From Marvania coccoides (Eukaryota > Chlorophyta > Trebouxiophyceae > Chlorellales > Chlorellaceae), in NCBI GenBank assembly GCA_963854735.1, contig OY978099.1:2248287-2312286 (forward strand): 64,000 nt of DNA, read 5' to 3'. This document shows, one piece after another, positions 11,637 through 59,338 of the stretch. A program made the position numbers and the translations under genes. The notes under the pieces are model-generated. The model saw only the letters and a program-made list of their open reading frames with translations, was not told the DNA's origin and ran no database searches. Position 1 is the first letter of the stretch. The number at the start of each line of letters is the position of its first letter.

Positions 11637-12594
11637 AATTGTTATCTGTTAACATATTCAACTGATTTAATATGTAAATCTACATATATACACAGCGTGC
11701 ATGTAGGCCTTTGATGTAGACCTTCGATTCTTGTATTCGGACCAAACGAGAGGACGATTCTAAGCACTCAAGAGCATTTTTTTCTCTTATCTGCAACCCT
11801 CGATTGCATCTGTTTACAGCCAAACTTTGTCTGGAGAGCGCTGCACTGCTAACAAACGCTTACAGCTTTAGGGTTTAGGGTTTTGGCAATCTCCAAAATG
11901 CAACTAGGTGGCGTATCTAGAATAGGCCTCTCCCAGGCCAGGACAGCAGCAGAAAGCAGCCAAACGTCCCTTTGTGCGACTGCCCTGCCCATTTTACGCC
12001 TGCGAATAAGCTCAGATGATTTGGCATTGGCAATAGCATTGAGGGGTTCGTTGCAGCTGGAGCCACATCCGTAATTCGCAGTGCTTAACCCTTCTCTCTT
12101 AAAATACACGTGTTTGTGGAATTCATGGATCATTTATATATATGTGTATATATATGGGACCTATGCACCTACTATAGGCCTCCTACCCCTGGGGTCTCTT
12201 TACTACTAACTGCTATATGGATTACGCGTTCACTTTAAATTCGGTAAAAAACTGAGAATTTACTTGTTTTTCACGTTCTTTACATAATAAATTAATTCAG
12301 AATTTATCCCTCATTATAAAAATACAAAATAAAAATTTAGGTAAATTTTGAAATGTCATGAATGATGCATCGAAAAAAAATCCAAGTGAATTCATTCATA
12401 CTAATGCAAACATTCGTCAAGAGTCTTTAGCAACCTAATTAACATTTAAAATTGAAAGCAAAGCGGGGAAAGTCAAGAAATGGGAATAATATCATCATCA
12501 ATCTCCGCCCAATTTGACGGCCCTAGTTCGTCTGGCCCAGGTCCATCAGCGGTCCTCGGGCGTTTCTCGCGGCAGAGTGTGGTGAGGTGCCGCA
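11637..12594. other. Intergenic region with a short telomere-like motif
   Basis: No gene recognised. A short interstitial match to the telomere repeat (TTTAGGGTTTAGGGTTTTGG) is at about 11,868-11,887. The rest is AT-rich, with a run of TATATA/TATGTG near 12,133-12,155. Confidence 0.45.
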
Positions 12595-14309
12595 TCATAG
12601 CCCCCGCGGGTCGCTTTGTCGCGCGACCGGTATTCTCTTCGCATCATCTGATTCAGCATTTTCAACCTGGACGTCAAGGGTTTGTCCGAGGTGGATGAGG
12701 AAGTCTTCCGCGGTCACTGCACTCATAAACAAGGGATTGAGGCTCTTCAGCGCCTGTGGTGACCTCCTTGTTGGTGCCGCTTTGCCAAAGTCGAAACTGT
12801 CGCAACGGCGGTCCTCAAAAACTCGGAGGGTGGTGGGCGGGGCGGCGGGCGGAGAGACGGGGGAGGCGGCGGCCGTAGCGGCGCGCGGGTCAGCAGGGGG
12901 CTCGAAAGTGACCAACTCCTCACAGCTGGGAGGGCGGTCATTCTCGAGCCAGTCCATGTCGTCAATCTCAGGGCAAGGCGGCTTGTGGTAGCGGAAGCCT
13001 CCTCTGGGCGCGGTAAAAACACCTCGTTGATCATGGTGATGGTGGTAGCTCCAGGCGAGGTCATCATGCTCCACAGCGCACAAACGCGCGCCCAATCCAT
13101 GCCTGCGCCGTGGTACGGCACCACCCACTTGGCACTGGGTAGAAATGCCCAGATTGGATCATGGCGAGAAGGACCTGCCCGATGGTGGGCGGCGGACCGT
13201 CCTTGCGGCACTTGAACATGAAGAAAGTCATTGCGCGCGACATAATGTTTGCTGGACAGAGCTCCTGCCGCCCCTTCATGAAGGACGCGCCAAACTGCGT
13301 ATAAAGGCGCCGGACCTTGGCCACCATCTCGTCGGTGATGTTCTTCATGCAGCACTTGAAGTGGGGGAGGCCGTAGTCCTTGGTGGTGTAGCCGACCATG
13401 CCGTCAAAGCAGTGCAGGCCAGTGTTCTTGAGAGTCTTGACCTGGATCTTGTAGCCTTCCTCCCAACCCAGCACCATTCTGAGCCTGTAGTTCAACGCCT
13501 TGGGTGCGATGCCGATGGTGCGAAAGACGGCTTGAAAGTGGAGGTTGTCCTCGTTGGCCCCCCGCTCGGTGCTGATGACGCAGTTAAGCACGCTTGGTTT
13601 GGAGTCGGCCCACTCCTTCAGCAGATCCAGCCCGCGAATGTCAACGTCCCTCCCGTTGCGCGTCATGGTGACAGACTGGTCCCGCTCAACGCCGTCGTTG
13701 GTCTCCGTTTTCTTTTTCGTGGTCTTTGGGGTGCCCGCCCCAGCGCCATCAAGAGCATTCTTGCGCGGCCGGCCCACGGGGCGCTTTCGCGGCGAAGATG
13801 CAGCGGCTGCCGCGCCAGCAGCCACCGTCTCGACGGTGGGCAGAGCATTCTTGCGGGGGCGTCGAGGCTGGCGCTCCGAGGGAACGGGCACCTCGTCGTC
13901 GTCGTCATGGTCGGCGTCGTCAGCAGCAAACTGCGCTGCGAGCATTCCACCCACGAGGACCTCGACAGCCACATCCTCGCTGTCCTCGTCGGACAAATCC
14001 TCGCTGCGAACATCGGCGTCGTCGTCACAGACCACCTCGGCGGTGTCATCTAGGAATGCGAGCTGCAAAATAGGCAAACATCAGCAATTTTAGCGAAAGG
14101 CTCATTTCCAAATGTCAGCAGATAAATGGCAACCACTCACGTAGGCATTGACGGTTGAGCGACTAGCCTCCCACTTTGCTTCTCGCTCCGCGCGATGCAG
14201 CAGACGACCGGAGGTCCGAGGCGCGGGACCTCCGGTCGTCTGCAGAGGCCTCCTTCGCCTCTCTCTTGGTAGATATCGCCTGTTTGGCTCGTCCTTTCTT
14301 CTTCCCCAT
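12595..14309 (-). CDS. Replitron-type HUH endonuclease (Rep), frameshifted, locus 1
   Basis: The main open part (14,077-13,064) shows an acidic N-terminus, two AT-hook-like segments (PRRPRKN near residue 71 and RPVGRPRKN near 99 of that ORF), then the HUH nickase core: ERGANEDNLHFQ (H-U-Q metal-binding motif, residues 171-182) and GYTTKDYG (YxxK with catalytic Tyr 230 and Lys 233). Such enzymes nick one DNA strand and link to it through Tyr. No helicase domain follows. Intron 14,140-14,063 has GTGAGT and TTGCAG ends. Two frame changes, near 13,140 and 13,035, are needed to read on to the C-terminal part ending at 12,595 (FRYHKPPCPEIDDMDWLEND). The first exon (start 14,309, MGKKKGRAKQ) is out of frame with the exon end, and a perfect hairpin lies between. 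So the gene may be damaged, or the assembly has indels. Confidence 0.75.
14200..14243. repeat. Perfect 18-bp-stem hairpin in the Rep 5' region
   Basis: GCAGACGACCGGAGGTCC at 14,200-14,217 is exactly the reverse complement of 14,226-14,243, with loop GAGGCGCG. It is GC-rich in AT-rich surroundings, lies between the divergent Rep and accessory genes, and breaks the Rep first-exon frame. A flanking near-duplication (REAKEAS versus REAKWEAS codings on either side) suggests insertion. It could be a Rep recognition or nicking site, a foldback insertion, or both. Confidence 0.85.
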
Positions 14310-14558
14310 GTTGCGCGCTACTGCGACGACCAATTTCAGGTAAAAAAACAGGGGGGAAAGCAGCGAAATTGGCGATTGTTGGGAAATACAACTTCTAGCT
14401 GCAATACATCGACAATACAGGTACAATACAACTTCTATCAATACAACTTCTATCAATACAACTTCTAGCTCTTCAAGACATAATTTCAGAATTTAATAAT
14501 ATTTCCGAATTAGGCAAATATTGAAATATCGCTTATTCCGTGATTTTCAGCAGCAAGC

Positions 14559-15354
14559 ATGGATTTCCTGAAGGACCTGGTGAAGGAGAAGCCCACCGAA
14601 GACATGGCGGACTACCTAAACGCGCTCGGTGTGGAAGAAGCAGACGTCGCTAAAATGTCTCGTTCCGATGCTAAAGACGCCATCGCCGCCCTCAAGGGCG
14701 CTTTCTTTGATTTTAAAACGAAGCACAACATCGGCTGGGCGACGGGGAAGCAGCGCACCATGTACAAGAAGCTCCTCCTGGAGATGGCAGATGTGGGTGA
14801 TGACGCCTACTTCAGGGAGGTGCTGAACAGGTTCGACGAGGCGAGTGAAAACTTGGCGAATAAAACATACCATCTACCCAAAGACTGCGATAATAAACCA
14901 TCTTTTGTTGTCTCTGCAGATTCAGAAGGATTTGATGTCCGTCCGCATCGACAAGATGCAACTGGTCAAGAGAACGGTGGAGAACCCCACCGACGGCATG
15001 GTGAAGGAGCTGAAGCGCCTGTGCACCAAACACAACGTGGACTACAAGACGCCGAACAGTTTTGCTGAAGCCGGCTTCAAAATCCAGGTTCTGAAGGAAT
15101 TGGAGGCCGATCAGTGAGCTAGCGGCCCCACCATGAAGCTCCTCAAGGACCTCGCAGCGCAGAAAGGCTACGAGCTGCCGAAAGGGAACTTCACTCAAGA
15201 TCAAGCGTCGACAGCAATCAAGCTGCTCACGAACAAGCATGTCAAGAAGCGCAAGTACTCCCAGTACGAGATGGAAGACTTCACGAGGAAGGAGCAGCAG
15301 GAAATGGGCGCCTTCGTGGCGCTGGTCTCCACCAAGAAGGTCAAGAAGACTTAA
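14559..15354 (+). CDS. Repeat-containing accessory protein next to Rep, locus 1
   Basis: Two exons: 14,559-14,819 and from 14,920, intron with GTGCTG and TCTGCAG ends. The protein starts MDFLKDLVKEKPTEDM and has three similar helical units: GWATGKQRTMYKKLLLEM in exon 1, PTDGMVKELKRLCTKHNVDY, and SGPTMKLLKDLAAQKGYELP followed by FTQDQAST. The last resembles short bacterial DUF3072-like repeats (weak inference). An in-frame TGA at 15,115-15,117 falls between units two and three; the tandem paralogue has TCA there, so the full protein ending at 15,354 needs that codon to be sense, or this copy is truncated. A homologue beside the second Rep gene (44,643-45,489) has the same intron position, after AY..E. 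Function unknown; probably mobility-linked. Confidence 0.65.
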
Positions 15355-16229
15355 TTATTTTTTGTATTTATTAGCAGCGATATATTAAGCGAGTTGATTA
15401 TGATGATAAGCTGAAGAGGCTGTAAGAATCAAAGCAACTTTGAAGGCCGAATATACAAGGCAGAGCAAAATTTGTGAAAGTTTAATCGAATGAAAATGTA
15501 TGATTGCGCCGAAAAGAGAGTAGACGACAGTGCTGCCTCCCGCGAACGACTTGGAAAAATATTAATCGATGTTTGAACGCGTTAACGGAGATTCTCCCAG
15601 CTTATTTTTCCCACAATATTTTTTTTTCTTCTGGGGTTACACAGCCTACTTACTGTATATATCATATTTTTGTTGAGAAATAAGACTGAGCTTAATTATC
15701 ATAGGTGCTTATCTGGCATATGAAAAACCTGACTCAAATGAATATAAACTATTTTTATATAAATATAAAATAGTATTCATTCAATTATTATTTCTGCTTG
15801 CACTTGAAGTGCCAGTCTGCTGTGGGGCCTTAGTTGCCTTTTGTGCGGACTTAATACCCTGTAATGTATGAATGTATAACTCAATAATTCATACACGGCA
15901 GATCGGCTAAACACCGCATCGCCCTGTTGAGCCTGTGCATCGCGTCTCAGGCGTTCGGAGTTGCATGGCGCTACAACTGCCTTCTCCTTTTCTTCGGGGA
16001 AGCTTTCTTCTTCACCACATTGCACAAATGCGATGACTTAAAAATGGGGGAAATAGGGAATTCACAAATAGGGGGGAAATTAGTGGAGTTCTTTGATATT
16101 GGTGCGAAACAGACACAGGGGAAGTTAGACAGGGGGTAAGGTAGATAGGGGGATAACATCTATTCAGACAGTCTTCGCCATGGGAAATACTTTAATTCTG
16201 CAAATTCCATTTCCATTCAACCAGGAAGC
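15355..16229. other. Spacer between accessory gene and its duplicate, with LINE tail
   Basis: Holds the 3' flank of the accessory gene, which resembles the 3' flank of the downstream pseudogene (about 16,880-17,100), showing that the tandem duplication included flanking DNA. A solo LINE 3' end sits at about 15,785-15,875. ORFs of 60-80 codons around 15,780-16,160 are not conserved. Confidence 0.55.
15785..15875 (+). mobile_element. LINE 3'-end fragment
   Basis: Contains the conserved 3' UTR of the window's LINE family (TTATTTCTGCTTGCACTTGA, GCCAGTCTGCT, CCCTGTAATGTATGAATGTA), ending in the tetranucleotide tail. Only the tail was inserted, as expected for a severely 5'-truncated LINE. Confidence 0.75.
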
Positions 16230-16876
16230 ATGGAATTTATCAAGGGACTGGTAAGGGAGAAGCGCACCGAGGACATAGTGGAGTTACTTTACTCGCTTGG
16301 CGAAAAAGAGGCATCCATTGCTTAAATGCATCGTTCCAAAGCCAAGGAGGTCAGCGACGCCCTCGAACTGCCTCCATTAAACGGTTGAGTGTGCAGATTC
16401 CGAAGGATCAGATGTCTGTCTGCATCGAGAAGCTGCAGCAGTACAAGAAGAAGCTGGAGGAGCCCACCAACTTCATGGTGAAGGAGCTGAAGCGGCTGCG
16501 CACCAAGCAGAAGGTGGAGTACAAGACGATTATCTTTGCCGGAGCTGGCTTCAAAATTCAGGTTTTGTAGTGTCTGGAGGGCAATCAGTCAGCCAGCGGC
16601 CCGACCATGAAGCTCCTGACGGAACTGGCAGCTGATAAAGGCTACGAGCTGCCGGGTGTGAGCTTCACTCAGGACCAGACGTCCAAAGCCATCAGGATGC
16701 GCATGCACAAAACTGTGAACAAGTGCAAGTACTCCCATTATTCGATGGACGACTTCACGGCTGAGGAGCAGGAGGGAATGGGCCTGGTAGCCTTCGTCGA
16801 CCTAGCCTGCAAGGACAAGGAGACGATTTCCCCCCCTTCTATTTTTATCTTTAGCAAAAATTTACGTTGTGATTAG
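16230..16876 (+). pseudogene. Tandem pseudogene of the Rep-linked accessory gene
   Basis: Starts with MEFIKGLVREKRTEDI, closely matching the accessory gene at 14,559. It has a TAA at 16,323, lacks the GWATGKQ unit (segment deleted), and has a TAG at 16,568-16,570, but keeps unit two (IPKDQMSVCIEKL, NFMVKELKRLRTKQ) and unit three (SASGPTMKLLTELAADKGYE). It is useful for comparison because it carries TCA where the upstream gene has an in-frame TGA. Confidence 0.8.
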
Positions 16877-17271
16877 CTGAATGACGATGCGATGAAGCTG
16901 GCTGTAACAAATGTCGAAAGTTGAAACAAAATTTGAAGGCAAGGCCAGGAGCTGAGATAGTGGAGCTGAAATCGATTGAAGATTGATGAAAACGCCGCGA
17001 AGAGTAGGCGAGAGCGCCAACCCACGGGTACAACGTAAATTTGCGAATTAATTTATTAATGCATCATTGAAGTTTATTCCAGCTTATTTCTCCTATTTTT
17101 TTTTTTTTCAAATTGAATTCGCACATTACTATGTGTGGGGTACCTTTCAGTTTATTACCAAATCCATTGTTTGCTGTTTCATCGTTTAAATGCGTTATTA
17201 ATCTTATTTATTTTGATACCATTTATTCCTATTCAATTTGATTCAGATTTACGATTGATACAAGCTACTCA

Positions 17272-24074: not shown

Positions 24075-24528
24075 TGTAATAGAGGGACTAGTTGTAGCAG
24101 CACAAGCTGCACTCCTTTGTTTCTCCTTACTTTAATCCCATCGAATAGCCATCTGACTTAGCATTCCAAATATGCCTCCACCTCTCTTTGATTCCTATTG
24201 CATGGCTATTTATGCCACTTCCCTTTCAGACACAAGCCCACGTATGCATTCTCCCTTTCTTGGCACACGTCTCGCACGCGCCTCCCTTTTATAAGACTAA
24301 TGCCCCGAGAATGGGGAGGCGCAGTCTTATAAAAGGGAGGCGCGTGCGAGACGTGTGCCAAGAAAGGGAGAATGCATACGTGGGCTTGTGTCTGAAAGGG
24401 AAGTGGCATAAATAGCCATGCAATAGGAACCAAAGAGAGGTGGAGGCATATTTGGAATGCTAAGTCAGATGGCTATTCGATGGGATTAAAGTAAGGAGAA
24501 ACAAAGGAGTGCAGCTTGTGCTGCTACA
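24075..24528 (-). repeat. 3' LTR of the gag-only element, with inverted duplication
   Basis: Larger than its partner (454 against 294 bases) because most of the LTR is present twice, head to head: 24,093-24,297 is the near-exact reverse complement of 24,324-24,528, two 205-base arms with a 26-base spacer. Only one or two mismatches were seen. It must have arisen after or during insertion. Confidence 0.85.
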
Positions 24529-41346: not shown

Positions 41347-41945
41347 GACTCTCCAATTGGATATCTTGATAATAATACGAACATACAACAGCATGTCAGC
41401 GTCAGAGGGGGTGATGGCAAGCAGAGGAATAAAGACGTTGTCACCTTTCAAAGGCCCTGTGGCCATAATCGCCTCCAGGAGTGTCTTGTGAATGTATTGC
41501 ACGATGATCCTGGTGCCGTTGCCAGCCCATTGGACATGTTGCGCAGCAGAATGATGGAGGCACCTTCGTGTAAATCCATGGGGCGGTACACAAGCGAATT
41601 CAATGATGTTGAGGAATCATGTTGGTAGGAGGAGCATTGCTCAGGTTCCACCACTGTGTCGACGCGCAACAATCCCTTGCAGAGTGCATGTGAATGCTTC
41701 AGATTTCTAATAGTATTTCTAATAGGGGGGGGCAGCATCATAGCATAATATTTACGTGGGTATATGCTACCACTAAACAGATTTAGCGCATTTGTCGGAA
41801 TGTTAATGCAAATCCAGCCTGGCTATTCATTTTCAGAGGCCATTTCAGGCGAAACTGAGTGATCCTGGGTGATTTTCGAGCATTTGTTTTGATTTAACAA
41901 TGAAATACATGCAGTAATTATCGATACAAAATGCAGGGACAGTAA
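41347..41945. other. Intergenic region
   Basis: No gene recognised. The minus-strand ORF 41,448-41,741 has no known domain. Sequence from about 41,946 is LINE. Confidence 0.4.
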
Positions 41946-43495
41946 TATGAAACATACTGATGCGCACAGCAAACTCCGTCGTGAACACTCTCTTAGTATC
42001 CCTACTTTGCCCCAGCTTCCATTTGGGAAGCAGAAATGCATTTACAATCGCGCAACTTTTGATGCAGCATTGCTCGTGGCTCATTACTACGAGTCTGGCT
42101 GTGAGGCAGCAGGTGTCCCCACCAAAATCACCGGCCGAATCCGAACCACGGCCTGCGGCAAGCATCTTCTTGGTGTTGCCTTCCCCATCCCACGCTCTGA
42201 GTGGGACGGGACGGCCAACGCGCTTGCCCCGGACCGCCGGTGATTGGTGTAGCTGTCAAACAACGCATGTACAAGTCACAGCCCGCTCTGGATGGCCTAG
42301 TGCCCCGCGAATTCAATGATAGGACTGTTTTCAAGTGGACAGTCTCTCGGATTGCGGATTTCCGGGCGCAACCTTCCCCAACGCCGCTGCCGGCCACCCC
42401 AGCCGGCCCCACACCGGTCCCACAGCCTGACCATCCGCGTCAACTCTCTCCCTTAGTCACTCTCCCCCCGGAGCTGCCCGCTCCCGCCGCCAACGCCACC
42501 AACGCTGCCGCGGCATCGCCATCATTGCGGATGGAAAATATTGTCGTCTATGGGCTGGACCATAGAATCAACGACAGCCTCCACACCGCTTTGGGGAAGT
42601 TTAAGGAGTTCTCTCGCAACTGTTTGAATATTGGATCCCTTGATGGCGTGTGTGCTCTGGAAACCCTTGTCTCTCACGACTTTTTTGGCCGCCCCCGCTC
42701 AGTTATCGTCCTCGAAGTCCCCCACGCAACCCGAAAAGCGATCTGGTGCGCGAAATCCCGGCTCTCAAGCTACGTCCAGGTGTCCATCGACTATCACGTC
42801 GACCACCTGGCCCACCGCGCCCACATCGCTCAACGCAGAAGCCCCGCTGTGCCACACCGCTCAGACCGCGACTGCTGGAGGCGCCCTCACCCGGCGCCCA
42901 CCCCCGATTTCAACCCGCCGTGTATCATCATCCCTATGGCGTGCCCCACCCCCCAGCACTTGTCTGCTTTCCCCCGAGGGCACCCAGACGGCACGGTCAG
43001 CTTCCCCGCTCCCGCCCCCAATGCCGCCCCCACACGCGTCCTACTCGTGCAGGGCACGCGGCTGTCCCCCCACGCCAGCCTGTCCCCTCCACCGCGGTGC
43101 GCGCCGTCCCACAGCACCACCCGCCGCGGGGAAATGACAACCAGGCCGGCCCAAATCGCGCGGCCCCAGACCGCACGCCGGATGTCTCCACACCCGTAAA
43201 TTCTCAATAGGGGGGAGGGAGTAAAGGGGGAACGGCCACCGTGGTCCGCCGCAGCCCCTGGCTTCTCCTGCTCAACGTAAAAGGCCTCCTCCAAAGCAAG
43301 CCGTCCGCTGTTTTCTCACTGTTTCGAGGGGAGCGCCTTGCCATCCTTACAGAAACATGGCTGAGCGACGAAGACACTCCCCCAACGGTGCCAAAATACC
43401 GCGCCTACAGTTTCCCATCCCCAATCGCGTCAACAATGGCGGCGGGAGGCGCCCGCAGCGGAGTAGCGGTCTACGTTTCTCTGGACCTGGCGCCT
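41946..43495 (+). mobile_element. LINE copy E, 5' portion only, fused to the second Rep gene
   Basis: Begins at ACATACTGATGCGCACAGC, the near-5' end of the LINE, carries the ORF1-like region and the first part of the endonuclease (LAILTETWLSDEDTPPT), and breaks off after VAVYVSLDL at 43,495. Directly after it, in antisense, comes the truncated 3' end of the second Rep gene. The same LINE-Rep junction is found at 49,903 in copy F, so the two were copied from one another. Confidence 0.85.
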
Positions 43496-43497
43496 TG

Positions 43498-44413
43498 AAA
43501 GTGCAGGTTTTCCTCAATTGAGCCTCGCTCGGTGGCAACGACGTGGCAGAGAATACGTTCATCGTTGTCCAAGAAAATTTTCTTGCCGAGGCCATTCGCA
43601 GGCGAGCACCCAGGCCACCGCCCAGGCGGGCACCCAGGCGGGCACCCAGGCGGGCACCTCACCATCTCCTCCTGTTTTGACAGCGGTGAGGGAGATGCCG
43701 AACGCCTTTTTAGGGTCAACGGCACCGGCGTCCTTGCTCTTGCCCTTGCGCTTGCCACTCCCCTTGCCGCCGTCGTTCTTCTTGACCTTGGTCAGACGCT
43801 TACTTGAGGCAGGCGTCCGGCCGACACGCCGTTTTGGCGGCAGCTCGTGCATATTGTCCTCCAAACCGTTGCCATGAGAAGGATACAGGGTGGCGGCCAG
43901 CAGGTAGGTATTTAAGTTTTTATTTGTATACTAGAAAGGCACAACGATTGTCGAACAATGTAACAATAAGTTTACCTACCGAGTTGGCTGGCGGTGCAGA
44001 GTCCCGTTTGCGTTCTTCTGGAGCATGTCGAGGACATTCTGCCGCTTCTTCGCAGTTGAGGTGGCGTCTGCTTTGCGGGGGTTCGACGAGGGGTTCGTGG
44101 ATGTCCTCATCTGACGGTTCGATCGGCTCGGAGGAGACAGCGCTGTCGGCGTCGAGGTGACCGGCAACGTCAGGGTCATCTGCATCGTTGGCAGGATCAA
44201 CATCGTCGTCCTGCATGAAAGAAGAGTGTCGACAATGAAAAGTATCGCCCTGGTGGGAAAATAAAAACCGTTTGAAAAAACGTCGAAAAACGGGCTTACC
44301 GAACTGTCATCATCAGGAATCCGATATATTGCAGCAACGACGGCCACAAAATCGGCCAGGGTATCGTCGAGGACGAGGCGCCGCGCTGCCGCACGTGTTT
44401 GCCTATCAGGCAT
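43498..44413 (-). pseudogene. Second Replitron-type Rep gene, 3'-truncated by LINE sequence
   Basis: Exons 44,413-44,300 and 44,210-43,980 join in frame; a third begins near 43,858 (acceptor uncertain). The encoded parts match Rep locus 1: an acidic exon (DDDVDPANDADDPD), an AT-hook-like KRRVGRTP, a Lys-rich linker and the HUH block ERGSIEENLHFQ preceded by ILCHVVAT (about 43,560-43,500). The coding stops there: the YxxK half is missing, replaced by LINE copy E. A 12-base tandem repeat (GGCGGGCACCCA) at about 43,623-43,662 lies in the linker and coincides with a frame change. No nicking activity is possible from this copy. Confidence 0.8.
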
Positions 44414-44642
44414 GGTTGGAAAGAACCTCGCACGTGAAAAAAAAAAAGCAATACGGTGACAGTTGCAAAAATTGCCGTTTTCGGGTGCATTTCCGACCCT
44501 GGCGCATAAAAAATTGGCAGGACCATCTGACGAAGGACCATCTAGCAAAGGACCGACATTTTGGATGAAATCGGCACTTCAAGGGGAACGCCAAGCAGTA
44601 ATTCTCCCACAAAAGGTTGTTGATCCTTTCTACCGGGCCACC

Positions 44643-45489
44643 ATGTCGAATTATAACGAGCGCGAGACCCTGAAGGTGCTGCTGAACACAGCGTCTCATC
44701 CCACCGCCGGACGGATGAGGACCTGCAATAGGATGGGTGTGAGGGTGCCCCTGAACGCAACTTGAGAAGGAGAAGAAGGCGCCGGATGTTATGAAGTTCA
44801 CGCAGGAGCATGGTGAGGGATGGGCTACCCTTGAGCAGATCGATATGTACGAGGATCTGCGGAAGCAGGTGGAGGACTTGCCCATCGTGGCATACGACGA
44901 GGTAATCACCCTGCCCTGAAGAAGACTCGGCATGTCTCGCTTTACAACGAATTTCGTCGTATCGCACTTTCACCTTTAATGTGCCCCCTTCTTGCAGGTC
45001 ACCACCAGCGTGATGCGCCGCAAGAACATCGCCGCCAAGCGCAAGCTGAAGTTCATCGAGGAGCCCTCCGTGGCTCAGGTGGCCGAGCGGAAGCGCCTCA
45101 CGAAGAAGGCTCGCCCCAACACTGCCGACAAGACCCTCGCCAACATCTTTGACAGAGAAGGCTTTCTGACGAAAGCCGGGGTGAGCTTCCTGATCGACGC
45201 CCTGAAAGAACCCAGCCGCAACGAGCCGGCCAGCAAGAAGACCGTGGACTTCCTGAACAAGCTTTACAAGGAAAAGCTGGGTATCAAGCGCGAGCCCGTG
45301 CCGATCACCCAAGGCCTCGCCCAGACCGAGATCGACGTTCTCCTGCAGAATGAAAAGCCTGCAGAATGAAAAGCCCACTCCGTTTAAGAAGGAGGAGTTC
45401 CCCGAGGAGGTGCGCGGCCCGCTGAGCCGCATTGTCGTCGACCTCACCGGTGACGACACCGGTGACGACGCGCCGTCCGGGTGCAAGTA
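44643..45489 (+). pseudogene. Accessory gene next to Rep, locus 2
   Basis: Divergent from the second Rep gene. Starts MSNYNERETLKVLL in a good context (CCACCATG). A frame change near 44,740-44,760 is needed to reach GWATLEQIDMYEDLRKQ, followed by AYDE, an intron (44,901-44,997, GTAATC/TTGCAG) and VTTSVMRRKN. The intron lies after AY..E, as in the homologue at 14,559. It ends with a unit SKKTVDFLNKLYKEKLG and ITQ, matching the FTQDQ unit of locus 1. A 16-base tandem duplication (CCTGCAGAATGAAAAG) at about 45,343-45,374 shifts the frame and ends the protein at 45,369 rather than 45,489. Probably decayed; function unknown. Confidence 0.65.
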
Positions 45490-46134
45490 GAGGTGGGTGC
45501 TGGCGTGATAATGACCAGACATTTTTTGTTAATTAGCGAGTTGCTTAGCGCAGTGCCGCCACATATATTTGAACGAGAAATCTTGACGTGGAATCCTGTA
45601 GCGACATGTTTACAAGAACATAGCGAACATAGCTAAATGTATAAAACCTAGGAAATGTAACAGAAAGCCGTGAGAAAACGAAGGTGGCGTGCTGGCTATG
45701 AAGGTGCGGGGAGGTGAAATTGTGGTGCATCCACCTGAAGAATTGCGGTGGAAGAGATGGCAGCGCGGGGAATATTTAGTTTCTCTTGGCCCCGCCAGCG
45801 GAGCGCGGGGGTCTCTCAGGTAGTAATAAAAATAATGCAAATTGATCGAACGCGAACAAACCGCGATGGAAGAGGCGAAGCGCCGCAAATATTTAAAACA
45901 CCCGAGGAAAAAAATACCGAGAAAGAAACATTTGGATTTCGTGCATAAATGAGAATGATATTAATTTTTTAAGATAACTTTTCCTTACTATTTCATCATG
46001 GCTATTTCATATTTTTGGCGATAAAAATTTCGGAAAATGCATTAAAAATATATATATCACGAATAAATAAATAAATAAATTAATTAATTAATTTTATGTA
46101 TTTATTCAGTGCATATTTTTATTGAATCTACCTT
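45490..46134. other. Intergenic region
   Basis: No gene recognised. Simple A/T stretches near 46,060-46,095 precede the GT61 gene and may include its promoter. Confidence 0.4.
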
Positions 46135-47289
46135 ATGTCAGGCAAGCTTTTGTTATGGCTCGCTTTGGCGTTCTTTTTCCTCCTTACTCTAGCACCATTC
46201 TCTTATTTGGAAGGCAGCAAAACCCTTCTATTGCAAAATCCATTTAACATAAAAACACAAATTCCCCAGACTCCTGCGGATATTTCATGTACCAAGCGCA
46301 TTCAGCGATGTCCCCATCAGCAATTTAATACGTGGTGCACTCAAGTTTATGGAAATGAGACTGTACTGCGTGAACCGCGACTAAGAGATATTAGACGCAG
46401 TGAACCTTCGCCTCTGAATTTAAAAAATTTCACAATCGTGGCAGATTTGCGATGTACGACAGCAATGCACCGCACTGCATATTTTCACATGATTGCCGAC
46501 TGTTTACTTCCTATGACACCTTTGCTTGTTTCGAAAGAATTGCAAAATCAAAACTTTATCTGGTTAGCAGAACCCGACCATGGTTATCGCCTAATGGAGC
46601 TTGGGCTTGTGTCGTGGGACAAACTGCGCACAGTAGAAGAACACACATCAACACCAATCCTAGCTAATGAAATATGGGCGCCAGATGTCTCCCAGAATCA
46701 TGTGTACAGCGAAGTTTCTCAACAGTGTGCCTCTACATTCCGACATGCCGTGATTGCCAAGATCGGCCCCTCCCAACTTAATGTCTGCTACAACCGTACT
46801 ATATTATTTGTATGGCGAAATACGAATGCAGGAAGAAATATTGTCGGTGATCATGAGTTACTTTCGAATCTCACTGCAGCATTCCCATTCCTTCGTGTCC
46901 AGTACTTTTGGGGAAATGAATCATTCTTAGAAACAGCAAAAATGTTTGCATCTGCCAAAATAATAATTGGACCCCATGGCGCTGGAATTATAAACTGTGT
47001 ATTCTGCCAAGATGATTCCCTGTTAATAGAAGTAACACGGACAACGCTGTCTGGCTATTTGTGGCGGACGAACCTTGCCATGCTTACCCATGCTGGAATC
47101 CCATCTTATATGCACGCAATACACTTGATGAAAATGTACGAGAGGCGAGGTGATTTTGTCAATGCCTCAGCTCCTGTACCAATTACTGAAGCTGCAAAAA
47201 CTATGCCATTTTATCTTGGGACCGAAGATATTCTAAGCATTTTAGTGAAGCTCGGCAATTTTACTTCAAGATGCTGGCACAATAGCTGA
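46135..47289 (+). CDS. GT61 glycosyltransferase, type II membrane protein
   Basis: 384 aa, one exon. Anchor at about residues 5-22 (LLLWLALAFFFLLTLAPF). The family is clear: TAYFHMIADCLLPMTPLLVS early, DKLRTVEE in the middle, ILFVWRNTNAGRNI, FASAKIIIGPHGAGIINCVF (the HGAGxxN block) and LIEVTRTTLSGYLWRTNLAM at the end, all in the order of GT61 (DUF563) enzymes. It likely transfers a pentose or GlcNAc to a glycan in the Golgi. It is more typical than the relative at 5,656. Several N-glycosylation sequons are present. Confidence 0.85.
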   Translation: MSGKLLLWLALAFFFLLTLAPFSYLEGSKTLLLQNPFNIKTQIPQTPADISCTKRIQRCPHQQFNTWCTQVYGNETVLREPRLRDIRRSEPSPLNLKNFTIVADLRCTTAMHRTAYFHMIADCLLPMTPLLVSKELQNQNFIWLAEPDHGYRLMELGLVSWDKLRTVEEHTSTPILANEIWAPDVSQNHVYSEVSQQCASTFRHAVIAKIGPSQLNVCYNRTILFVWRNTNAGRNIVGDHELLSNLTAAFPFLRVQYFWGNESFLETAKMFASAKIIIGPHGAGIINCVFCQDDSLLIEVTRTTLSGYLWRTNLAMLTHAGIPSYMHAIHLMKMYERRGDFVNASAPVPITEAAKTMPFYLGTEDILSILVKLGNFTSRCWHNS

Positions 47290-48278: not shown

Positions 48279-48647
48279 CGTCACCTAGAAGAATGTTTTC
48301 GATTAGCAGTACTCTTATCTCATCTTCCCGTACCGTCATCAACACCTTGGGCAACAATAAGAAACATACTGATGCGCAAACTCCGTCGTGAACACTCTCT
48401 TAGTATCCCTACTTTGCCCCAGCTTCCATTTGGGAAGCAGAAATGCATTTACAATCGCGCAACTTTTGATGCAGCAGCGCTCGTGGCTCATTACTACGAG
48501 TCTGGCTGTGAGGCAGCAGGTGTCCCCACCAAAATCACCCGCCGAATCCGAACCACGGCCTGCGGCAAGCATCTTCTTGGTGTTGCCTTCCCCATCCCAC
48601 GCTCTGAGTAGGACGGGACGGCCAACGCGCTTGCCCCCGGACCGCCG

Positions 48648-49607
48648 GTGATTGGTGTAGCTGTCAAACAACGCATGTACAAGTCACAGCCCGCTCTGGA
48701 TGGCCTAGTGCCCCGCGAATTCAATGATAGGACTGTTTTCAAGTGGACAGTCTCTCGGATTGCGGATTTCCGGGCGCAACCTTCCCCAACGCCGCTGCCG
48801 GCCACCCCAGCCGGCCCCACACCGGTCCCACAGCCTCAGCATCCGCGTCAACTCTCTCCCTTAGTCACTCTCCCCCCGGAGCTGCCCGCTCCCGCCGCCA
48901 ACGCCACCAACGCTGCCGCGGCATCGCCATCATTGCGGATGGAAAATATTGTCGTCTATGGGCTGGACCATAGAATCAACGACAGCCTCCACACCGCTTT
49001 GTGGAAGTTTAAGGAGTTCTCTCGCAACTGTTTGAATATTGGATCCCTTGATGGCGTGTGTGCTCTGGAAACCCTTGTCTCTCACGACTTTTTTGGCCGC
49101 CCCCGCTCAGTTATCGTCCTCGAAGTCCCCCACGCAACCCGAAAAGCGATCTGGTGCGCGAAATCCCGGCTCTCAAGCTACGTCCAGGTGTCCATCGACT
49201 ATCACGTCGACCACCTGGCCCACCGCGCCCACATCGCTCAACGCAGAAGCCCCGCTGTGCCACACCGCTCAGACCGCGACTGCTGGAGGCGCCCTCACCC
49301 GGCGCCCACCCCCGATTTCAACCCGCCGTGTATCATCATCCCTATGGCGTGCCCCACCCCCCAGCACTTGTCTGCTTTCCCCCGAGGGCACCCAGACGGC
49401 ACGGTCAGCTTCCCCGCTCCCGCCCCCAATGCCGCCCCCACACGCGTCCTACTCGTGCAGGGCACGCGGCTGTCCCCCCACGCCAGCCTGTCCCCTCCAC
49501 CGCGGTGCGCGCCGTCCCACAGCACCACCCGCCGCGGGGAAATGACAACCAGGCCGGCCCAAATCGCGCGGCCCCAGACCGCACGCCGGATGTCTCCACA
49601 CCCGTAA
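48648..49607 (+). pseudogene. LINE copy F ORF1-like region
   Basis: 319 aa. It contains the same MENIVVYGLDHRINDSL region and proline-rich C-terminus as copies D and E. It may bind RNA like other LINE ORF1 proteins, but I see no zinc finger. A TAG at 48,608 (reading GAGTAG against GAGTGG in copy E) interrupts the upstream frame. Confidence 0.7.
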
Positions 49608-49904
49608 ATTCTCAATAGGGGGGAGGGAGTAAAGGGGGAACGGCCACCGTGGTCCGCCGCAGCCCCTGGCTTCTCCTGCTCAACGTAAAAGGCCTCCTCC
49701 AAAGCAAGCCGTCCGCTGTTTTCTCACTGTTTCGAGGGGAGCGCCTTGCCATCCTTACAGAAACATGGCTGAGCGACGAAGACACTCCCCCAACGGTGCC
49801 AAAATACCGCGCCTACAGTTTCCCATCCCCAATCGCGTCAACAATGGCGGCGGGAGGCGCCCGCAGCGGAGTAGCGGTCTACGTTTCTCTGGACCTGGCG
49901 CCTT

Positions 49905-50297
49905 GAAAGTGCAGGTTTTCCTCAATTGAGCCTCGCTCGGTGGCAACGACGTGGCAGAGAATACGTTCATCGTTGTCCAAGAAAATTTTCTTGCCGAGGC
50001 CATTCGCAGGCGAGCACCCAGGCCACCGCCCAGGCGGGCACCCAGGCGGGCACCCAGGCGGGCACCTCACCATCTCCTCCTGTTTTGACAGCGGTGAGGG
50101 AGATGCCGAACGCCTTTTTAGGGTCAACGGCACCGGCGTCCTTGCGCTTGCCCTTGCGCTTGCCACTCCCCTTGCCGCCGTCGTTCTTCTTGACCTTGGT
50201 CAGACGCTTACTTGAGGCAGGCGTCCGGCCGACACGCCGTTTTGGCGGCAGCTCGTGCATATTGTCCTCCAAACCGTTGCCATGAGAAGGATACAGC
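49905..50297 (-). pseudogene. Rep gene fragment captured in LINE copy F
   Basis: Near-identical to 43,497-43,886, including the HUH block and the 12-base tandem repeat. On the right, homology with locus 2 ends exactly after AGAAGGATACAG (43,886 and 50,297); beyond that, locus 2 continues into Rep intron and upstream exons, while copy F continues in LINE. So the fragment was derived from locus 2. Confidence 0.9.
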
Positions 50298-56812: not shown

Positions 56813-57829
56813 CTATTATAACTGCCAGCGAGGCCAATTTTGGCCGATCCGAGCGAGGCGCGCAAAAAATGACTCCTCCTGTCGCGAATGCTGCATGTAA
56901 ATTCAATTATCATGGCTCAAAACATTCTTCAGAACTATATCTATCTATGATGAGGCAGCGGCCGTGTCGCAGCTACTGCTGTCAATGCACGTCGCACTGT
57001 TCAATCTACTCGATCAGACTTGGGCAAACTGTGTATGCGCTGTACGTGCGTTGTATGCACCTTTCACCTATATCATTTATATATACATAAATGCCCACTT
57101 TTAATCTTAGAAATGAACAGTGAAGTGTTTCTCTTGGGAGAGAGTCGGCCATTTATAGATGGGATCTCTGAGATCAACAAATTGGCAACGCCAACCGCGG
57201 CTCTCCCTGCTCCAAAAGGTTGTTGCAGCCTCACCGCATACAAGCATGCATTGTCCGATTAGAAAAAAGACACTATGGCAGATGTTGGGGATCACATTTT
57301 TGGAGGCAGGGATCAACAAATTGGCAACGCCAACCGCGGAGCTCCATTCCCCAATAGGTTGCTGCAGCCCCACCGCATACAGGCATGCATTGATCGATTA
57401 GAAAAAATACACTATAGCAGATGTTGGTGAGCACATTTTTGGAGGGAGGGATCAACTATTATAACTGCCAGCGAGGCCAATTTTGGCCGATCCGAGCGAG
57501 GCGCGCAAAAAATGACTCCTCCTGTTGCGAATTCTGCATGTAAATTCAATTATCATGGCTCAGAATATTCTTCAGAACTATATCTATCTATGATGAGGCA
57601 GCGGCCGTGTCGCAGCTACTGCTGTCAATGCACGTCGCACTGTTCAATCTACTCGATCAGACTTGGGCAAACTGTGTATGCGCTGTACGTGCGTTGTATG
57701 CACCTTTCACCTATATCATTTATATATACATAAATGCCCACTTTTAATCTTAGAAATGAACAGTGAAGTGTTTCTCTTGGGAGAGAGTCGGCCATTTATA
57801 GATGGGATCTCTGAGATCAACAAATTGGA
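56813..57829 (+). repeat. 374-bp segmental duplication
   Basis: The segment 56,813-57,186 (CTATTATAACTGCCAGCGAG onward) is repeated at 57,456-57,829 with only a few substitutions, an offset of 643 bases. Satellite units lie between the two copies. Small ORFs of 73 codons are the same in both copies but are not convincing genes. Confidence 0.9.
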
Positions 57830-59240
57830 TCAACAACCGCGGCTCTCCCTGCTCCAAAAGGTTGTTGCAGCCTCACCGCATACAAGCATGCATTGTCCGA
57901 TTAAAAAAAAGACACTATGGCAGATGTTGGGGATCACATTTTTGGAGGCAGGGATCAACAAATTGGCAGCGCCAACCGCGGCGCTCCATTCCCCAACAGG
58001 TTACTGCAGCCTCACCGCATACAGGCATGCATTGTCCGATTAGAAAAAAGACACTCTGGCAGATGTTGGGGATCACATTTTCGTGAGGGAGGGATCAACA
58101 AATTGGCAGTGCCAACCGCCGCGCTCCCTTCTCCAACAGGTTACTGCAGCCTCACCGCATACAGGCATGCATTGTCCGATTAGAAAAAAGACACTATGGC
58201 AGATGTTGGTGATCACTTTTTTGTGAGGGAGGGATCAACAAATTGGCAGTGCCAACTGCGGCGCTCCATTCCCCAACAGGTTACTGCAGCCTCACCGCAT
58301 ACAGGCATGCATTGTCCGATTAAAAAAAAGACACTATGGCAGATGTTGGGGATCACATTTTTGGGAGGGAGGGATCAACAAATTGGCAAGGCCAACTGCC
58401 GCGCTCCCTTCTCCAATAGGTTACTGCAGCCTCACCGCATACAGGCATGCATTGTCCGATTAAAAAAAAGACACTGTGGCAGATGTTGGTGATCACTTTT
58501 TTGTGAGGCAGGGATCAACAAATTGGCAAGGCCAACTGCCGCGCTCCCTGCTCCAAAAGGTTGTTGCAGCCTCACCGCATACAGGCATGCATTGTCCGAT
58601 TAAAAAAAAGACACTGTGGCAGATGTTGGTGAGCACATTTTTGGAGGTAGGGATCAACAAATTGACAACGCCAACCGCCGCGCTCCATTCCCCAACAGGT
58701 TACTGCAGCCTCACCGCATACAGGCATGCATTGTCCGATTAGAAAAAAGACACTATGGCAGATGTTGGGGATCACATTTTTGGAGGCAGGGATCAACAAA
58801 TTGGCAGTGCCAACCGCGGCGCTCCCTTCTCCAACAGGTTACTGCAGCCTCACCGCATACAGGCATGCATTGTCCGATTAAAAAAAAGACACTGTGGCAG
58901 ATGTTGGTGAGCACATTTATGGAGGCAGGGATCAACAAATTGGCAACGCCAACCGCGGCGCCTCCTTCTCCAATAGGTTACTGCAGCCTCACCACATACA
59001 GACATGCATTGTCCGATTAAAAAAAAGACACTGTGGCAGATGTTGGTGAGCACATTTTTGGAGGCAGGGATCAACAAATTGGCAGTGCCAACCGCGGCGC
59101 TCCATTCCCCAACAGGTTACTGCAGCCTCACCGCATACAGGCATGCATTGTCCGATTAAAAAAAAGACACTCTGGCAGATGTTGGGGATCACATTTTTGG
59201 AGGCAGGGATCAACAAATTGGCAGTGCCAACCGCCGCGCT
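57187..59240 (+). repeat. Subtelomeric satellite, unit about 139 bp
   Basis: Around 12 to 13 tandem units of about 139-140 bases, each with GGATCAACAAATTGGCA, CCTCACCGCATACAGGCATG, CATTGTCCGATTA, an A-rich stretch and GACACT...GGCAGATGTTGG. The array is interrupted by the second copy of the 374-bp duplication. Units differ at a few positions, with variants shared between non-neighbours. ORFs of 60-134 codons on both strands follow from the unit length and are not called as genes. It ends near 59,240. Confidence 0.95.
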
Positions 59241-59338
59241 CCCGTGACCTACATGTTTGAAATATTTGCTGAAACTTGATTTTGACGGCGCTGTGATCTA
59301 TTTCTATGTGGTATGCCGGTGATTTTTTGAAGTCGTCT

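Follow-up and report, generated by a model that had tools for sequence, protein, structure and literature searches.

The stretch of DNA analysed here (the window) is the terminal 64 kb of contig C3. It carries an element, E1, which is best explained, judged by its sequence, as a decayed Replitron copy with two genes. A Rep gene and a divergent accessory gene both lie inside the ends of E1 (Table 1), and the probability that this is a mobile element in which the two genes are coupled is put at about 0.9. The earlier note had proposed that this pair, placed at 12595..15354, is a mobile unit of the Replitron type. This proposal is borne out by two Pfam Replitron domains, by three copies with one left boundary and by an exact right boundary common to E1 and the copy E2. 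The pair does lie inside the element at these positions, the true span of the element being wider on both sides. The genome examined comprises 22.46 Mb in 15 contigs, and the presence of introns in its genes marks it as eukaryotic.

Table 1. Features of E1, its neighbouring remnant and the second locus (window positions; Rep, HUH endonuclease)
Feature	Position	Strand	Size	Remarks
Element E1	12213..15650	.	~3.44 kb (3438 bp)	Lies between the shared left end and the right end
ORF in other frame	12747..13355	-		Holds most of the Replitron_C domain (PF21860)
Rep ORF	13064..14077	-		Acidic N-terminal part, weak AT-hook, NLHFQ (H-U-Q), GYTTKD (YxxK); putative 5' exon and start
Accessory gene, exon 1	14559..14819	+		GWAT..Q..MY..L motif; relative P0002 (75% identity)
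Accessory gene, exon 2	14920..15354	+		In-frame stop in E1; relative P0001 (80% identity)
Right-end module	15600..15650	.		Also occurs as solo fragments elsewhere in the genome
E4 remnant adjoining E1	15960..17130	+		Eroded accessory gene, right end, short Rep-side trace
Locus 2 Rep, N-terminal part	43491..44414	-		Cut off after H-U-Q
Locus 2 accessory homologue	44643..45490	+		Frame breaks; intron about 44902-44997
Second copy of locus 2 Rep fragment	49899..50296	-		Within a duplicated block

The Rep ORF of E1 matches the Pfam domain PF21859 (Replitron_HUH; 68.6 bits, cut-off 28.5, E-value: 8.3e-19). A second domain, PF21860 (Replitron_C), follows just downstream in another frame; it scores 26.6 bits on the bare ORF that holds most of it, just below the cut-off of 27, and 38.0 bits when the frame break is bridged by an X in the Rep protein. 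This break lies within the Replitron_C domain and is found in E2 as well; a second break occurs farther on in E1, relative to E2. Together, the two domain matches and the frame break assign the E1 Rep to the Replitron family and identify E1 as a broken copy. Up to an E-value of 1, the E1 Rep matches no Pfam model for CRESS, geminivirus or Helitron proteins, and no Pfam helicase model is found in the scanned ORFs of the locus. The ORF thus agrees with the earlier description of a Rep with H-U-Q and YxxK motifs and no helicase, and among the profiles compared it falls to Replitron_HUH, as that description had anticipated.

Between E1 and E2, Rep has a dN/dS of 0.35, based on 8 synonymous changes and 10 others. 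The value is 1.15 for 46 codons in the other frame (from 5 changes) and 0.52 for the following 135 codons; because the latter stretch gives 0.16 when shifted by two, the frame assigned to the end of Rep is tentative. A search with the whole Rep of a large protein collection scored 8000 word-sharing candidates, none with an E-value of 0.001 or less, and residues 128-320 gave 112 candidates in that collection, none at 0.01 or less. A single weak match was obtained among PDB sequences (E-value: 0.58). In viral and prokaryote genome contigs, scans sensitive to close relatives only gave no confirmed relative of the Rep or accessory proteins. An AT-hook-like stretch in L017 gained no supporting result on further inspection and was set aside.

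Element ends, which the earlier note had left to be found, can be defined for E1. The element starts with ATGGATTACGCG directly after a flanking CTAT, at a left base common to E1, E2 and E3 (DNA comparison within contig C3), and finishes with GGGGTTACACAGCCT directly before ACT, a right boundary exactly common to E1 and E2. Beyond these boundaries, the flanks of the three copies, all on contig C3, are unrelated to one another. The outer 40 bases of E1 hold no terminal inverted repeat (best inverted match equalled by 635 of 1000 shuffles), the ends contain no inverted pair of at least 25 bases, and there is no clear short direct terminal repeat (best match equalled by 950 of 1000 shuffles). The bases flanking the left and right ends are ACTAT/ACTAT in E2, ACTAT/ACTCT in E3 and GCTAT/ACTTA in E1. 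The ACTAT at both ends of E2 is either a terminal repeat or a target duplication. At gathering thresholds, Rfam gives no match.

E2 (L010 1621-3555) starts at C3:1961620, at the same left base as window position 12213, and is 94% identical to E1 on the Rep side and 85% identical at the right end. An internal deletion has removed the equivalent of E1 13726-15371, leaving Rep present and the accessory gene absent. E3 starts at C3:1972321 in reversed orientation and has the same left base as E1. Of the element it retains, in the E1 order, the first 508 bases (72% identity) and some 690 from the last part (71% identity), and a Ty3-like retrotransposon is inserted in it (Retrotrans_gag, 55.8 bits, cut-off 24.1; RVP_2, 25.6 bits, cut-off 20.3). 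E4 adjoins E1, and its Rep-side trace is weak, with a score equalled by 5 of 500 shuffles. Both E3 and E4 are homologous to E1 up to about 25 bases from the right end and their mutual similarity reaches to a few bases from it; their last right-end bases (TACT) were aligned by eye. Throughout the genome, Replitron_HUH exceeds its cut-off at two places, E1 and E2, with no others up to an E-value of 10. No intact copy of the two-gene element is present in the genome, E1 itself being decayed.

As described earlier, the accessory gene is divergent from Rep in a head-to-head arrangement; its first exon begins at 14559 and is followed by an intron. The exon 1 donor at E1 was picked among in-frame candidates to match the place of the intron at locus 2 (see below). 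The in-frame stop in exon 2 of E1 is absent at that place in E3, in E4 and in the outside relative P0001, and the accessory genes of E3 and E4 carry breaks of their own. Neither gene pair is intact: the Rep of E1 is frame-broken, the E1 accessory gene has its stop, and the accessory gene of locus 2 has frame breaks.

A profile of five accessory pieces identifies two proteins at an E-value of 0.1 or less among 6659 candidates (identities in Table 1). P0001 matches exon 2 over 63% of the query and is found on 10 contigs, and P0002 matches exon 1 over 38% of the query and is found on 19 contigs; the contig sources are labelled lgn and ena, and the contigs are up to 7.6 kb long. P0001 is uninterrupted over exon 2. 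A search of the 22.46 Mb genome with P0001 up to an E-value of 10 gives at least four loci, namely E1, E4, E3 and locus 2 (E-value: 0.06). Each of the four lies within an element or next to a Rep fragment (these counts are lower bounds), and no accessory gene was found away from Rep in this genome-wide search, in line with the coupling proposed earlier. The dN/dS of exon 2 is 0.49 for E1/E4, 0.41 for E1/E3 and 0.35 for E4/E3, and that of exon 1 is 0.52 for E1/E4. In separate lineages of the element, the accessory gene has evolved as protein-coding sequence. The part of P0001 that corresponds to exon 2 is basic (pI 9.7), and exon 1 of E1 has a pI of 5.1.

The accessory protein has no match in Pfam up to an E-value of 10, neither to RPA nor to another known family. 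PHROGs gives weak matches only (E-value: 0.065 and above), none of them capsid-like, NCBIfam gives one weak match for the query without exon 1 (E-value: 0.055), and the accessory profile gives a single weak match among PDB sequences (E-value: 0.42). P0001 and P0002 have only sub-cut-off Pfam matches (DUF6396, E-value: 0.061; DUF4872, E-value: 0.045; ADH_zinc_N_2, E-value: 0.14). A suspected likeness of the accessory units to DUF3072 was dropped as it found no Pfam support. The gene had been described as made of three related helical units, a relatedness that the sequence comparison does not support. Nine pairs of units, four being within-protein pairs, gave observed scores that are equalled or exceeded by 41 to 1452 of 2000 shuffles. 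Within proteins the counts are 126 (U1-U2), 41 (U1-U3), 663 (U2-U3) and 506 (V2-V3), the best of these, 41 of 2000, being uncorrected for several tests. Related units might still appear on fold comparison.

Locus 2 is a distant second family with the same head-to-head pair. The earlier note had reported this pair at 43.5-45.5 kb; the order of the genes and the homology of the accessory gene stand, and the Rep proves to be truncated and to have no YxxK motif. The locus 2 Rep shares 14 of 31 residues with the E1 Rep around the motif (E-value: 1e-06, single comparison) and stops directly after H-U-Q at a repeat starting at about 43490. The two accessory proteins align with a score of 111 (shuffles 34.9 +/- 5.9), which is equalled by 0 of 2000 shuffles for the whole protein and likewise for exon 1 alone and exon 2 alone. 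An intron can be placed in phase 0 after a Glu codon at both loci (the last codon of AYFRE at locus 1 and of AYDE at locus 2). The proposed identity of intron place is therefore upheld as far as placement goes, with the locus 1 donor chosen among candidates. The stretch 44400-45560 has no DNA match elsewhere in the genome, so that no ends are defined for this family. The repeat that cuts the locus 2 Rep is read as LINE-like from an endonuclease-like ORF, a fragment to which Pfam gives only 13.9 bits, below the cut-off of 24.5. A 1.9-kb block that includes this LINE-like repeat and its junction with the Rep fragment occurs twice, at 41944-43888 and 48356-50296 (99.2% identity).

A review (PMC10741241) describes Replitrons as elements of 0.9-4 kb that encode an HUH endonuclease, lack inverted terminal repeats, carry direct repeats of 5-11 bp at their termini and duplicate 2-8 bp of the target, known from green algae and non-seed land plants. 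The length of E1 falls within this size range, and both domains exceed their cut-offs, PF21860 across one frame break. Like Replitrons (Craig 2023, PNAS; PF21859, PF21860), E1 combines an HUH domain with the C-terminal domain, has no helicase and no inverted repeats, and is about 3.4 kb long. Unlike Replitrons as that review describes them, it has a second, divergent gene inside its ends and is accompanied by solo right-end fragments elsewhere. An accessory gene is not mentioned in the excerpts of Replitron literature found, which leave out the founding description. Contig C3 ends in a plant-type TTTAGGG telomere array, which fits the Replitron host range without deciding the question.

According to a further paper (PMC4683698), Helitrons have acquired RPA-like genes, with single-strand binding, at least three times, and E1 resembles such Helitrons in being an HUH transposon with an added gene. 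It differs from them in that the Helitron Rep has a helicase and in that the accessory protein of E1 matches no RPA. Helitron ends have the form TC...CTRR. The ends of E1 do not, and no Helitron or helicase model is found in it. The CRESS Rep domain and superfamily 3 helicase are likewise absent, with no such Pfam model up to an E-value of 1.

The right end of the element also occurs alone. The pattern TTCTGGGGTTACACAGCCTACTA, with up to three mismatches, has nine matches in the genome (E1, E2 and seven solo fragments) and none in a backwards control. The seven fragments lie on five other contigs (C1, C2, C4, two on C11 and two on C13), and six of the seven are recovered by DNA search as well. 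They align to E2 over 24-73 bp only and end at one same right base. Their left boundaries differ, and the DNA upstream is unlike the element and, next to the fragment, unlike that of the other fragments. One of them (C13:401077-401099, L037) appears, as judged by eye, to lie within an EF-hand-like gene, in intronic sequence. A DNA search with the left end gives E1, E2 and E3 only, with no left-only fragments recognised; this is a rough comparison, as the two queries are unequal in length (left 263, right 301 bases) and in composition. A left-end pattern gives 9 matches against 13 in its backwards control, and use of the left end was therefore restricted to E1, E2 and E3, which the DNA search also supports. 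A possible left end with 2 mismatches, at C3:1683375, shows no further similarity and was taken as chance.

If both ends were equally likely, the one-sided chance of seven right-only and no left-only fragments would be 0.008 (our own arithmetic). In the 11 aligned right ends, the next bases are ACT in 11 and ACTAT in six, a rule that is partly built in because the search pattern itself contains ACTA. The right ends of E3 and E4, which the pattern misses, are likewise followed by ACT. IS91-type one-ended transposition keeps one end constant, the variable end often lying past the element. The solo fragments are similar in that they hold one end constant and different in that their variable end lies within 24-73 bp of it. 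These fragments are new here, and we read them as the product of rolling-circle transfer that set out from the accessory-gene side, involved one end only and was aborted.

To our knowledge, the mechanism of Replitron transposition has not been worked out. The sequence of events suggested for E1 would begin at the right end, where the GYTTK tyrosine of Rep would nick single-stranded DNA on the strand that runs in the Rep direction. A rolling-circle-like transfer into targets of the ACT(A/T) type would proceed from the right end to the left end, where it would normally stop, and an aborted transfer would leave a short right-end fragment behind. The accessory protein, basic in its second exon, would bind the element ends or single-stranded DNA and assist Rep, as the RPA-like genes are thought to act in some Helitrons. 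The Replitron domains, the shared ends, the co-occurrence at four of four loci, the second family, the dN/dS values and P0001 all argue that the accessory gene is probably a working part of the element. That its protein is a DNA-binding cofactor of Rep is a tentative suggestion. Initiation at the right end, to which the seven solo right ends with their constant base and the lack of left-only matches point, is put forward with similar reserve. Counted against these proposals are the absence of an intact copy, the E2 Rep without an accessory gene, the weak Rep trace of E4, the lack of defined ends at locus 2, the lack of a recognised fold or domain in the accessory protein, the ambiguous frame at the end of Rep, the lack of significant duplications beside the solo fragments and the ACTA within the right-end search pattern. 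More speculative is the full proposal that Replitrons have a two-component branch, with an end- or single-strand-binding protein beside Rep, in which the right end (upstream of Rep) initiates and the 24-73 bp fragments are aborted rolling-circle transfers that record strand polarity. The conserved second gene could encode a partner of Rep, and insertions of one end alone, if true, would reveal the start end and the strand of the Rep enzyme.

The divergent two-gene layout recalls circoviruses, in which Rep and a second gene are divergent, and the locus could accordingly be an integrated virus or plasmid of the CRESS type. This is very improbable: both Replitron domains are matched, neither a CRESS Rep nor a helicase model appears up to an E-value of 1, several copies have defined ends in common, and the second gene has no capsid-like match. 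It is just as hard to hold that the accessory gene belongs to an ordinary host gene family and lies near Rep by chance. The two outside relatives (P0001 and P0002), which are without known context, would allow it, but every locus of the accessory gene found in this genome lies within an element or next to Rep, and the gene is enclosed by shared element ends. A less remote, though still unlikely, view makes the accessory gene a passenger, or a gene whose action is on the host (e.g., by anti-silencing), outside the transposition reaction. Its protein has no recognised domain, and E2 has kept both ends without the gene and perhaps moved in that state. Set against this are the presence of the gene in two distant families at the same place and in the same orientation, and its constraint between copies (dN/dS), and its role as a working part of the element is preferred.

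For the solo right ends the balance is closer. They may be decayed remnants or shared host sequence rather than one-ended insertions, an explanation that has a substantial chance of being correct, though somewhat short of even: there are only seven cases, and flanking duplications are not significant in any of the seven tested (62 to 483 of 500 shuffles equal the best match), which leaves room for decay or shared host sequence. Opposed to it are the single right base at which all seven fragments end, with differing left points and unrelated upstream DNA, and the left-end search, which yields E1, E2 and E3 only.

The window and its contig have several further features. ORFs for a glycosyltransferase 61 are found in this repeat-rich contig at window 46135-47289 and L010 3677-4891 (62.9 and 78.6 bits, cut-off 27), and arrays of a 139-base tandem repeat lie at 57172-59243, about 5 kb from the telomere. 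Only two perfect foldback structures occur in the window (arms of at least 14 bases, loop of at most 30). One is a hairpin at 14200-14243 with 18-base arms and an 8-base loop, located in the putative 5' exon of Rep beside a frame problem there, and may be functional or a recent mutation. The other, at 24192-24429, has 107-base arms and a 24-base loop and is the longest such structure in the window.
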